Shown here piece by piece: positions 37,391 through 40,538 of a DNA stretch of 64,000 nt. The stretch lies in contig NZ_JAKZEW010000013.1 of the NCBI RefSeq assembly GCF_022548875.1, positions 1 through 64,000 of the forward strand. The letters are read 5' to 3'. Made by a program: the position numbers and the translations under genes. Each line of letters begins with the position of its first letter. Position 1 is the stretch's first letter. A model generated the notes under the pieces. It worked only from the letters and a program-made list of their open reading frames with translations. It was not told the origin of the DNA and searched no databases. Source of the stretch: Glycomyces sp. L485 (GTDB lineage Bacteria > Actinomycetota > Actinomycetes > Mycobacteriales > Micromonosporaceae).

Positions 37391-38734
37391 TCACATCAGC
37401 GGGCCGAGCACCGCCGCGGCGATCGAGAAGTACAGGACCAGGCCGGTCGCGTCGCACAGCGTCGAGACCATCGGCGCCGAGATCACCGCAGGGTCGATGC
37501 CGACCTTCTTGGCGATCAGGGGCAGGAACGCGCCGACGAACGTCGACCAGGTGCAGATCGTCAACAGCGTCAGCGCGATGATCAGGCCGATGTCGGGCCC
37601 GTAGGCGAGTCCGACGAGCGGTCCGCCGACGATCGCGAGCATCGCCCCGAGCATGAGGCCGACCCGGCCCTCCCGCCAGACGATCCTGAACGTGTCGGAG
37701 AAGCGGATCTCACCGACGGCCATGGCGCGGATGACGACCGCCGATGCCTGGGAGCCGGAGTTGCCGCCGACGCCGGTCAGCAGCGAGATGAACACCGCCA
37801 GAACGGTGACCCGCTCCAGCGCGGCCTCGTAGTAGTTGAGGACCGAGACGGTCAGGATCCCGGCGAGGGCGAGCAGCAGCAGCCAGAACGCCCGCTTGCG
37901 GGCGAGCATGAACACCCCGGCGGAGAGGTACGGCCGCTCCAGCGGCTCCGAGCCGCCGGATCGGGCGGCGTCCTCGGTGTCCTCGGCCTCCAGGACCTCC
38001 ATGGCGTCGTCGAAGGTGATGAGCCCCACCAGGCGGTCGTCGTGGTCGACGACGGGCAGGGCCGCAAGGTTGGCGTCCTGGACCAGGCGCGCGGCCTCCT
38101 CCTGGTCGGTGTCGGTGCGCACCATGTGGTGGTCGTCGGCCATGAGGTCGTGGACCACGGTGTCGGGGTCGGCGGCCACCAGGTCGGGCAGCGCGACGGT
38201 GCCGAGCAGCTTGCGGCGCCCGTCGGTCACCGGCAGGATGTCCAGGTGGCGGGGCCGACTGCGCAAGTGCCGGATGCGTTCGATCGCGTCGGCGGCGATC
38301 ATCGATGCCCGCAGCGACACGAAGTCGGGCGTCATGATGCGCCCGGCGGACTCGGGGTCGTAGCCCAGGAGCCTCGCCGTCGACAGCCGCTCGGACGGAC
38401 TGAGCTGCGCCTGGAGCCGTGTGGCGACCATGGCGGGCATCTCCTCGAAGAGCTTCGCCCGGTCGTCGGCCTCCATGGAGTCGAGCAGGTCGCGGACGGT
38501 CTCGGTCTTGAGCGCGTCCAGCAGCTCCTGCTGGTGGTAGGTGTCGAGCTCTTCGAAGACGGCCAGCGCGCGGTCCTTGGGGAGCAGGCGGAACCGCACC
38601 GCCTGGTCGGCGAGTTCCATGCGGGGCAGTTCTTCGGCGAGTTCGACGGCCGAGGATTCGGAGAGCTCGGCCCGGAGCGCGGCGAGGGAGTCCATGGCCG
38701 CGGGAGAGATCGGTTGGATGACCTGATTCGACAC
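37391..38734 (-). CDS. mgtE: Magnesium transporter MgtE
   Basis: This 447-residue Mg2+ channel has an N-terminal MgtE_N superhelical domain (about 25-125), a tandem CBS pair that senses cytosolic Mg2+ (about 130-255) and a five-helix membrane domain from about 280. The conserved pore segment is visible as GVGGNSGSQAS. I chose GTG 38734 because AGGAGG (38743-38748) is eight bases upstream; an in-frame GTG at 38743 would lie inside this ribosome site. A short leader reading frame and competing hairpins precede the gene, suggesting Mg2+-responsive control. Confidence 0.95.
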   Translation of the reverse strand: MSNQVIQPISPAAMDSLAALRAELSESSAVELAEELPRMELADQAVRFRLLPKDRALAVFEELDTYHQQELLDALKTETVRDLLDSMEADDRAKLFEEMPAMVATRLQAQLSPSERLSTARLLGYDPESAGRIMTPDFVSLRASMIAADAIERIRHLRSRPRHLDILPVTDGRRKLLGTVALPDLVAADPDTVVHDLMADDHHMVRTDTDQEEAARLVQDANLAALPVVDHDDRLVGLITFDDAMEVLEAEDTEDAARSGGSEPLERPYLSAGVFMLARKRAFWLLLLALAGILTVSVLNYYEAALERVTVLAVFISLLTGVGGNSGSQASAVVIRAMAVGEIRFSDTFRIVWREGRVGLMLGAMLAIVGGPLVGLAYGPDIGLIIALTLLTICTWSTFVGAFLPLIAKKVGIDPAVISAPMVSTLCDATGLVLYFSIAAAVLGPLM

Positions 38735-38748
38735 CAGAGTCACCTCCT

Positions 38749-38771
38749 AGCACGAGAGAACGGCCGTGCTC
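38749..38771 (-). promoter_or_regulatory. Hairpin before the mgtE ribosome site, with an alternative partner
   Basis: On the mRNA, AGCACG (38765-38770) can pair with CGTGCT (38749-38754), which directly precedes the AGGAGG of mgtE. The same segment, extended to GAGCACGG (38764-38771), is perfectly complementary over 8 bp to CCGTGCTC (38821-38828) inside the leader reading frame. The two pairings exclude each other, which is the layout of an attenuation or translation switch. The switch is inferred. Confidence 0.5.
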
Positions 38772-38800
38772 GGGGTCTCGACTACAGGTTCGGACGCGCC

Positions 38801-38887
38801 TCAGCTGCAGGTCGGACGCGGAGCACGGTGGAAAGAAGCATGGGGCAGCACGTCGGTATCTCGACTAGGACTGGGATCATCGCCCAT
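38801..38887 (-). CDS. Putative leader peptide (uORF) of mgtE
   Basis: This 28-codon reading frame has a very strong ribosome site, GGAGGAGGTG at 38894-38903, and starts MGDDPSPSRDTDV. It ends with TGA 67 bases before the mgtE start. The acidic residues and alternating prolines at the N-terminus recall enterobacterial MgtL (EPDPTP-like), where such sequences destabilise ribosomes at low Mg2+. Segments inside this frame can pair with RNA just upstream of mgtE. No promoter is certain; TAGGCT at 38929-38934 could be a -10. Product and mechanism are inferred. Confidence 0.5.
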   Translation of the reverse strand: MGDDPSPSRDTDVLPHASFHRAPRPTCS

Positions 38888-39004
38888 GACTCTCACCTCC
38901 TCCGGCCGAAACGGTGCTAGCGCGGTCAAGCCTAGCAAGGGCCCGTGAACGACAACTCGATTCGCGGCATCGGGGAATGGCGGCTCACACCGACCGATGA
39001 CGAA

Positions 39005-39037
39005 CGGCGGCGCGGGTCGCCCGGACCCGCGCCGCCG
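39005..39037 (-). terminator. Terminator after gatB
   Basis: A 13-bp perfect stem (39005-39017 with 39025-39037) with a 7-nt loop lies 14 bases past the gatB stop. It separates the gatCAB operon from the mgtE leader. Confidence 0.85.
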
Positions 39038-39050
39038 CTTCGCGTCTCGG

Positions 39051-40538
39051 CTAGGAGAGCTTGTCGAGGATGATCTGGCGGACCGTCCCGGCGTCGGCCT
39101 GTCCCTTGGTGGCCTTCATGACCGCACCGATGAGGGCCCCGGCGGCGGCGTGCTTGCCGCCGCGGATCTTCTCGGCCACATCGGGGTTGGCGGCTATGGC
39201 CTCGTCGACGGCGGCTTCGAGTGCGCCGGTGTCGGATACGACCTCCAGGCCGCGGGCGGCGGCCACGGCGGCCGGGCCGCCCTCACCGGCGAGGACACCG
39301 TCGATGACCTGGCGGGCCAGCTTGTCGTTGAGCCGGCCGTCGTCGACCATGCCCTGGAGCTCGGCTACCTGCGCCGGGGTGATGGCGAGCGAGCCGAGCT
39401 CGGCGCCGGACTCGTTGGCGCGCCGCGACAGCTCGCCGAGCCACCACTTGACGGCGCCGGAGGCGCTGGCCCCGGCGGCGATGGTGGCCGCGATGAGGTC
39501 GACGGCGTCGGCGTTGACGACCGACTGCATCTCCTTGTCCCCCAGGCCCCATTCGGCCTGGAGGCGCTCGCGGCGCTGGCGCGGCGGCTCGGGCAGGCTC
39601 GCGCGGAGCTCCTCGACCCATTCGCGGCCGGGCTCCATGACGGCCAGGTCCGGCTCGGGGAAGTACCTGTAGTCGGTGGCCTCCTCTTTGGAGCGCCCGG
39701 GGCTGGTCTCGCCGGTGGCCTCGTGGAAGTGGCGGGTCTCCTGGTGGATCTTGTCGCCCGCGTCGAGCAGCGCCGACTGGCGGCGGATCTCGTAGCGGAC
39801 GGCGCGCTCGACGCTGCGCAGCGAGTTGACGTTCTTGGTCTCGGTGCGGGTGCCCCACTCGTCGCCGGACTTGTTCAGCGAGAGGTTGACGTCGCAGCGC
39901 AGCGAGCCCTGCTCCATGCGGACGTCGGAGACGCCGAGGGAGCGGACGATGTCGCGCAGTTCGGCGGTGTAGGCGCGGGCGACCTCGGGGGCGAGGGCGC
40001 CCGTCCCCGGGACGGGCCTGGTGACGATCTCGACGAGCGGGATACCGGCGCGGTTGTAGTCGACGAGCGACTCGGTGGCACCGTGGATGCGGCCGGTCGC
40101 GCCGCCGACGTGGAGGGTCTTGCCGGTGTCCTCTTCCAGGTGGACGCGTTCGATCTCGACTCGGTAGGACTCGCCGTCCACGGTGACCTCGACGTAGCCG
40201 TCCTCGCAGAGCGGCTCCTCGTACTGGCTGGTCTGGAAGTTCTTCGGCATGTCCGGGTAGAAGTAGTTCTTCCGGGCGAAGCGGGTCCACTCGGCGATGC
40301 GGCAGTTCAGGGCAAGACCGATCTTGATGGTCGCTTCGACGGCTGCCTTGTTGGCGACCGGCAGCGCGCCGGGCAGGGCCAGGCAGACCGGGCAGACCTG
40401 GGTGTTCGGTTCGGCGCCGAAGGTCGTGGAGCAGCCGCAGAACATCTTGGTGTTCGTGTCGAGCTCGATGTGCGTCTCAAGCCCGAGGACGGGCTCGTAG
40501 GCGGCGACGGCGGCTTCGTAGGTGTTGAGTTTCGTCAT
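39051..40538 (-). CDS. gatB: Asp-tRNA(Asn)/Glu-tRNA(Gln) amidotransferase subunit B
   Basis: This 495-residue subunit binds misacylated tRNA and carries the kinase/transamidase site. Family landmarks are [20 protein letters not shown] at the N-terminus, with Cys residues for zinc (C-G-C and [12 protein letters not shown]), [17 protein letters not shown], and the C-terminal YqeY-like helical domain with [13 protein letters not shown]. The ATG at 40538 follows the gatA stop by five bases. It is the last gene of gatCAB. Confidence 0.97.

Follow-up and report, generated by a model that had tools for sequence, protein, structure and literature searches.

Sensing of Mg2+ by the translating ribosome has been described for enterobacteria, with the leader peptides MgtL, MgtQ and possibly CorL (PMC8092293, PMC11282234, PMC11552253). 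Ribosomes on an acidic start are unstable, for MgtL more so at low Mg2+ (PMC11282234, PMC11552253, PMC8092293). MgtL is encoded before mgtA in enterobacteria; there, the drop-off of ribosomes when Mg2+ is low changes how the leader RNA folds, and MgtL acts via Rho-dependent termination (PMC11282234, PMC11552253). For MgtQ, which precedes Salmonella mgtB, expression of the upstream open reading frame (uORF) and of the transporter are inversely linked, and a stem-loop in mgtQ that hides the mgtB ribosome site was shown by mutation (PMC8092293). Translation of CorL, encoded before corA in E. coli and Salmonella, is inversely related to corA (PMC11552253). The nearest described leaders to the one discussed here are the M-box riboswitches (RF00380), which include a mycobacterial mgtE type and are actinobacterial leaders of Mg2+ genes, partly with conserved uORFs (PMC12810186), and the mgtE motif of Thioalkalivibrio, a candidate structured leader of mgtE reported only from that genus and as a riboswitch candidate, not as a uORF (PMC11109978).

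The leader considered here precedes mgtE of Glycomyces sp. L485, a soil bacterium, in a stretch of 64,000 nucleotides called the window (contig NZ_JAKZEW010000013.1, positions 1 to 64,000). It resembles MgtQ in several respects: the uORF is short, has an AGGAGG ribosome site and precedes a Mg2+ transporter gene; acidic residues near the N-terminus are accompanied by one Pro; and a region of the uORF pairs with leader segments (PMC8092293). The two differ in length (8 aa for MgtQ against 28-39 aa in actinobacteria), peptide, gene (mgtB versus mgtE or corA) and phylum, and no switch at the ribosome site is predicted in Glycomyces. With MgtL it shares the position of a leader ORF before a Mg2+ importer and an N-terminal acidic-Pro stretch, EPDP in MgtL and DDP in Glycomyces (PMC11282234, PMC11552253). 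By eye the sequences are not similar beyond that stretch, and the Glycomyces leader is likened to MgtL by design only. The corA leaders of the actinobacterial genus g150 described below correspond to CorL in position, whereas CorL has fewer Pro and acidic residues than these MRSEPPS-type leaders (PMC11552253). Unlike the mycobacterial loci, Glycomyces gave no covariance-model match to the M-box in the leader, the genome or the scanned loci, in agreement with the earlier note on this DNA, which had recognised none; 2 of 14 control genomes matched in the scan. That note had also known of no described leader of this type for actinobacterial mgtE, and searches of the available parts of the open-licence PMC literature gave no account of acidic-Pro leader peptides for either mgtE or corA of actinobacteria. 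The report on Streptomyces lividans leaders (PMC8079986) has no occurrence of mgtE or magnesium.

Layout of the mgtE locus

Relatives were collected by a protein search for mgtE orthologues of at least 70% identity, which gave 21 other Glycomyces genomes and one genome each of two sister genera. The leader set thus comprises 24 sequences, 22 from Glycomyces with the window included and two from the sister genera. On the minus strand the gene order is gatC-gatA-gatB, a gap of about 300 nt, and then mgtE; GatB and the amidase were assigned by Pfam, gatC by position and length only. The features of the leader, all on the minus strand, are as follows.

38929..38937, minus strand: extended -10 promoter-like element TGCTAGGCT, putative and found by inspection, with an expected start site at about 38922
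38893..38903, minus strand: near-perfect ribosome site of the uORF, GGAGGAGGTGA, with AGGAGGTGA at 38901-38893
38801..38887, minus strand: leader ORF of 28 codons, from ATG 38887 to the TGA ending at 38801, encoding the 28-aa peptide MGDDPSPSRDTDVLPHASFHRAPRPTCS (begins MGDDPSPSRDTD)
38873..38881, minus strand: codons 3-5, Asp-Asp-Pro, the proposed ribosome-destabilising site
38864..38866, minus strand: rare Ser codon AGT, invariant, at position 8 of the uORF (9 in L003)
38821..38828, minus strand (38828-38821): 5' arm of helix A, CCGTGCTC, inside the uORF; CCGTG in 24/24 leaders
38764..38771, minus strand (38771-38764): 3' arm of helix A, GAGCACGG, which pairs with the late-uORF segment CCGUGCUC
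38749..38754, minus strand (38754-38749): CGTGCT, alternative partner of GAGCACGG (helix B), pairing in the window
38743..38748, minus strand (38748-38743): mgtE ribosome site AGGAGG; GGAGG kept in 24/24 leaders
37391..38734, minus strand: mgtE, Mg2+ transporter, with Pfam MgtE_N, CBS (two stretches) and MgtE (Pfam run on 37391-38743)

The uORF, both helix arms, CGTGCT and AGGAGG lie where the earlier note had placed them. The likely start of mgtE is GTG 38734, on the basis of ribosome-site spacing and the relatives; a longer version starting at GTG 38743 is disfavoured, as it overlaps the mgtE ribosome site. The uORF stop is 66 nt from the mgtE start in the window and 55-109 nt from the start of the mgtE match among the relatives.

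Directly 3' of gatB, inspection of the minus strand at 39036-39006 shows a 12-bp GC-rich hairpin without a U-run, and in several relatives, L012 for instance, TTTT follows a hairpin at this position. In view of these hairpins, mgtE probably has its own promoter. An extended -10-like element TGNTAnnCT is present upstream of the uORF in 17 of the 24 leaders, at -47 to -51 in 11 and farther away in the remainder, which would place the uORF within the mgtE transcript. A sigma-70 promoter scanner made no call in the mgtE leader region, including the -10-like element, and a terminator scan of 38700-39080 gave no intrinsic terminator (hairpin plus U-run) between uORF and mgtE. A further sequence, GTGTGAGCnG (38990-38981 in the window, minus strand), precedes the uORF in 19 of the 24 leaders, mostly by about 103 nt, and is possibly a regulator site. 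One sister genus carries a second, distant MgtE (G034:C1:748071-749339, 36% identical).

Conservation of the leader peptide

All 24 genomes with a close mgtE have the uORF in front of it, preceded in every case by a GGAGG-type ribosome site. The peptide starts with [MV]-x-Asp-Asp in 24/24 and has DDP in 23/24, the other being L003 with DDS; a typical peptide of the relatives is MGDDPGSSRDTDVFFPFSFYRAPRPLTLKRAA. Both Asp codons vary synonymously only (GAT/GAC). The MgtL-like acidic-Pro uORF that the earlier note had proposed for an actinobacterial mgtE is thus conserved throughout the set. A model of the leader RNA (R1) detects a strong copy (E below 1e-20), one per genome, at mgtE in the 22 Glycomyces. 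When a model of this type was run on the 121 genomes of the family, 11 matched: 10 of them at mgtE, in Glycomyces or one of the two sister genera, and the eleventh, G358, over part of the model (E 0.0028). Genome G016 has an identical second copy of the leader on another contig (G016:C13 and G016:C31, loci L099 and L116, identical over 3159 compared bases), which is either a duplication or an assembly artefact.

Codon-level comparison was done on the 17 of 24 uORFs (15 distinct) that have 32 codons in one frame, a set to which the window's own uORF does not belong. The pN/pS ratio among the 15 distinct sequences is 0.45 in codons 2-13 and 0.16 in codons 14-17, against 5.8 in codons 18-20 and 1.0 in codons 26-32, values that show no restraint on the peptide. 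Synonymous change is also low in codons 2-13 (pS 0.157), and for that reason selection on the peptide and selection on the RNA overlap there. The codon adaptation of the uORF falls in the lowest 1.3% of 27-codon segments from the long ORFs of the window, a reference of 42 long GC3-rich ORFs that were picked by script and are not annotated genes. In these ORFs, AGT makes up 3% of the Ser codons; in the leaders of Glycomyces and the sister genera it is kept in 24/24.

The stretch containing this codon has complementary sequences nearby. The uORF segment AGUCG (38866-38862) can pair with UGACU (38742-38738), between the mgtE ribosome site and the start codon. In the Glycomyces leaders AGUCG:UGRCU is paired in 99% of cells, with no compensatory change and mostly as wobble outside the window. 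If this pairing forms, a ribosome that pauses at DDP would keep the mgtE ribosome site free, which is one lead towards a reason for the invariant AGU. Two hairpins over this part of the uORF were considered and dropped. The small hairpin GUCG/CGAC in codons 8-13 is paired in 91.3% of cells but shows no covariation. The hairpin CGAY/GUYG over the acidic-Pro codons, a candidate explanation of the invariant AGU, can form at least three pairs in 24/24 leaders, but its mean predicted probability in Glycomyces is 0.03, with 0.64 in L023, where another partner is used, and at most 0.02 in the other 23.

Pairing of the uORF with the leader

The segment CCGUGCUC forms at least seven contiguous pairs with GAGCACGG in 24/24 leaders (median 9), compared with 0.084 per species when the downstream sequence is shuffled; this count uses the anchors CCGTG[CT] and GC[AG]CGG, which we chose, so that five to six pairs are partly guaranteed. 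Taken singly, the window gives weak evidence, since its 8-bp match is equalled in 82 of 1000 dinucleotide shuffles. In the alignment, the uORF arm CCGUGCYY pairs with RRGCACGG, which precedes the mgtE ribosome site, in 96.7% of cells, and this value falls to 31-49% when the partner is slid by 1-3 columns; the 3' arm of L024 is misaligned in alignment A1. RNAalifold selects helix A unaided. Two of the eight pairs are changed on both sides. The covariation is modest, as out of 500 shuffles the observed value was matched by 16 for cells paired, 23 for score, 181 for pairs changed on both sides and 425 for pair types. The helix between uORF and leader that the earlier note had drawn from one sequence is therefore found in the whole set, and RNAalifold picks the same one.

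Four species (L003, L004, L006, L024) keep CCGUG although it is read there in another frame, so that selection at this position is on the RNA, not on the peptide. A reading of RAPRP in this part of the uORF as an arrest-peptide motif was rejected on the grounds of the frame change over the segment in the four species. In 24/24 leaders 18-23 nt separate the end of the 3' arm from that of the mgtE ribosome site, and this fixed distance is kept despite a linker between uORF and 3' arm that varies by tens of nt.

Predicted folding of helix A depends on where the ribosome is placed. In the whole free leader it is predicted weakly, with a mean probability of 0.25 (0.14 in the window). With the ribosome at codon 5, the probability is at least 0.77 in 13 of the 24 leaders and 0.97 in the window, while in 8/24 helix A still stays below 0.1 after removal of the 5' part.

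Alternative pairings and access to the mgtE ribosome site

The earlier note had proposed that GAGCACGG could switch from the uORF segment to CGUGCU, right before the mgtE ribosome site, and that the position of the ribosome on the leader would thereby decide access to mgtE. The comparison separates the three segments. The two that form helix A are conserved, with the modest covariation given above, and CGUGCU is not well conserved: by inspection it is lost in 9/24 leaders, being CAUG in five, CGCG in two and absent in L023 and L024. Helix B is paired in 85.9% of cells across 23 distinct rows with no compensatory change, and was rejected as the OFF partner on both counts. Gated opening of the mgtE ribosome site was also rejected. 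When the 24 leaders were folded in two ribosome states, with the ribosome at codon 5 or over CCGUGC, the predicted openness of the mgtE ribosome site was 0.19 versus 0.21, respectively (Wilcoxon p 0.60), and a second folding simulation gave a similar outcome with 0.28 versus 0.31, so neither simulation predicts the switch that had been suggested. The coupling could be kinetic or depend on Rho or on decay of the RNA; a failure of the energy model on such GC-rich leaders is another possibility.

Other structures in the leader were examined as well. An AUGGG:CCCAU pairing is possible in 21/24 leaders, but in shuffled sequences it averages 17 and reaches 23, and it was set aside. For a pairing of the uORF ribosome site with a pyrimidine stretch before the mgtE ribosome site, we attribute the apparent compensation to extra bases preceding the ATG, which shift the rows concerned, and this candidate was discarded too. 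Rfam has no family at the mgtE leader; the only hit, CcsR1 at 38999-39076, scores 17.3 bits and so misses its cut-off of 65.3. The RNAalifold consensus fold of the leader contains only 17 pairs, with a covariation term of -0.67 kcal/mol.

Leaders of mgtE and corA in other actinobacteria

Surveys of the order and the class gave 88 mgtE matches outside Glycomyces (E 1e-45 or better), and the upstream regions of 83 were read, the other five being G245, G274, G277, the second G167 copy and G499. Thirteen of the 83 regions have a uORF preceded by a ribosome site and with [DE]P near its start, and all 13 share [DE]-P-x(1,2)-Ser; the other 70 failed the uORF test, and the reverse-strand control on the same regions gave three matches. 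The positives belong to three other actinomycete families, with MRSEPPSRRPRG-type leaders in 6/6 genomes of g35 (family f8), MRSEPPS-type leaders in 2/2 of f33, and longer [AS][DE]PxHS-type leaders in 5/7 of f34. Together with Glycomyces and its sister genera, this gives 37 leaders found without requiring AGU, and AGU encodes the Ser one or two positions behind [DE]P in all 37 of them (24 from Glycomyces and its sister genera, 6 from g35, 2 from f33, 5 from f34). The proposed actinobacterial leader family would have the signature [DE]-P-x(1,2)-Ser, with AGU as an invariant codon.

The MRSEPPS pattern matched 16 of 394 genomes of the class, and the reversed pattern none. Five of these matches stand before mgtE, from whose leaders the pattern had been taken, and the other 11, all from genus g150, stand before corA; the association with Mg2+ transporters is therefore circular in its mgtE part and not in its corA part. 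The gene downstream in g150 is CorA by Pfam for one genome (E 1.8e-60) and in 11/11 by its length of 378-381 aa with YGMNF. An acidic-Pro leader thus precedes corA in 11 of the 12 genomes examined of this genus (family f34), with an MRSEPPSHA uORF 127-134 nt before the corA start (L167-L177). A looser pattern, which the window also fits, matched 21/394 genomes, of which 17 before Mg2+ transporters, with none in the reversed control. In the four others no Mg2+ transporter was recognised in the stretch read, and these are taken for chance matches. Glycomyces corA, by comparison, has no such uORF in the 29 readable loci (39 matches, 30 with a locus); among these 29, L207, L208 and L222 look mis-framed.

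Pairing between uORF and downstream leader occurs in these groups as well. In the g35 mgtE leaders, GUCG...GCCGCG.GGCGCCG in the uORF pairs with GGCGCC.CGCGGU.UGAC downstream; most pairs hold in 6/6, and the GUC of the stretch with the AGU codon is paired in all six. In the g150 corA leaders CGCAGG in the uORF is matched by CCUGCG downstream in 11/11, with no compensatory change. Given the pairings in g35 and g150, the plan of an acidic-Pro start, a uORF arm and a downstream partner recurs with different sequences.

Some of these loci contain a second short frame. In three f34 mgtE leaders (L133, L135, L138), inspection shows that GGGUGUGC can pair with GCGCACCC or GUACACCC, which lie around the ATG and the Shine-Dalgarno sequence of another short ORF that follows the first uORF. 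In four g35 leaders (L025, L040, L042, L047), a second frame preceded by a Shine-Dalgarno sequence (...AANLPVEGRAA...) overlaps the MRSEPP uORF in another reading frame.

Possible mechanisms

The comparison of genomes establishes, at the level of sequence, the uORF with its acidic-Pro start, the helix together with its fixed distance to the mgtE ribosome site, and the occurrence of such leaders with two unrelated Mg2+ transporters. In view of the above, we consider it marginally on the probable side that the uORF encodes a leader peptide which is translated and controls mgtE in cis, in the way known from MgtL and MgtQ. At ample cytoplasmic Mg2+, ribosomes would clear Asp-Asp-Pro at codons 3-5 and continue through codon 20 and beyond. 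Their passage would cover or melt CCGUGCUC, so that helix A with GAGCACGG would be absent and mgtE expression low. When Mg2+ is scarce, the N-terminal acidic-Pro stretch would destabilise the ribosomes and cause early abortion of translation, to which slow codons may contribute. After abortion, CCGUGCUC would be free and helix A would form 15 nt upstream of the mgtE ribosome site, after which mgtE expression would go up. The peptide itself probably acts only while being made. Translation of the uORF, its response to Mg2+ and the direction of the effect are inferred, as is the coupling step, be it ribosome-site access, Rho-dependent termination or RNA decay. Because Mg2+ dependence, sign and coupling have this status, membership in the MgtL/MgtQ group is claimed only in the sense that the leader would work like these systems.

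Other explanations of the conserved uORF should be considered. The ribosome could respond to a cue other than Mg2+, such as rare codons (AGU, CGA), the supply of Pro or Ser, or general translation stress. The poor codon adaptation of the uORF would fit such a cue, as would the preservation of the rare AGU in 24/24 leaders, whereas DDP is replaced by DDS in L003. However, two unrelated families of Mg2+ transporters are represented among the downstream genes, which favours Mg2+ as the cue, and acidic and Pro residues near the start are a known Mg2+-linked feature (PMC8092293, PMC11282234). We regard a cue other than Mg2+ as unlikely, though it deserves weight. A sensor made of RNA, in which the leader itself binds Mg2+ like a small riboswitch and the ORF is secondary, would account for nucleotides that are conserved across frames, for the near-invariant AGUCGAGAU block, for helix A and perhaps for the AUGGG:CCCAU pairing. 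Yet that pairing is little above what composition gives, the Rfam search and the small consensus fold with its weak covariation term speak against a structured sensor, and the start of the uORF, its ribosome site and [MV]xDD are kept in all 24 leaders, which makes this explanation rather improbable.

The uORF could also load ribosomes for mgtE, by reinitiation or as a standby site, and raise expression without sensing. Its near-perfect ribosome site speaks for this, as does the distance of only 66 nt between its stop and mgtE in the window. Among the relatives, however, that distance ranges over 55-109 nt, and what is under selection is the internal codons and helix A, not a stop near mgtE; we judge ribosome loading to be slightly more improbable still than an RNA sensor. 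That ORF and pairing both arose by chance would agree with the helix match in the window alone, which shuffles reproduce too often to be significant, but is hardly credible, the conservation of ORF and helix in 24/24 leaders having already refuted it.

Returning to the translated leader peptide as the preferred explanation, the wider reading is that Actinobacteria possess their own family of ribosome-aborting Mg2+ leader peptides, found before mgtE and corA in at least four families, independent of the enterobacterial MgtL, MgtQ and CorL, with the ribosome as the Mg2+ sensor and the helix between uORF and leader as the output. We hold this reading to be evenly poised between right and wrong. 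If it is true, the occurrence of the same design on mgtE and corA, with other peptides and other RNA arms, would point to ribosome destabilisation as a general way of sensing Mg2+. The many natural variants would be available for testing which residues and codons matter. For Glycomyces, the leader would offer a possible explanation of how Mg2+ uptake is controlled in an actinobacterium without an M-box.
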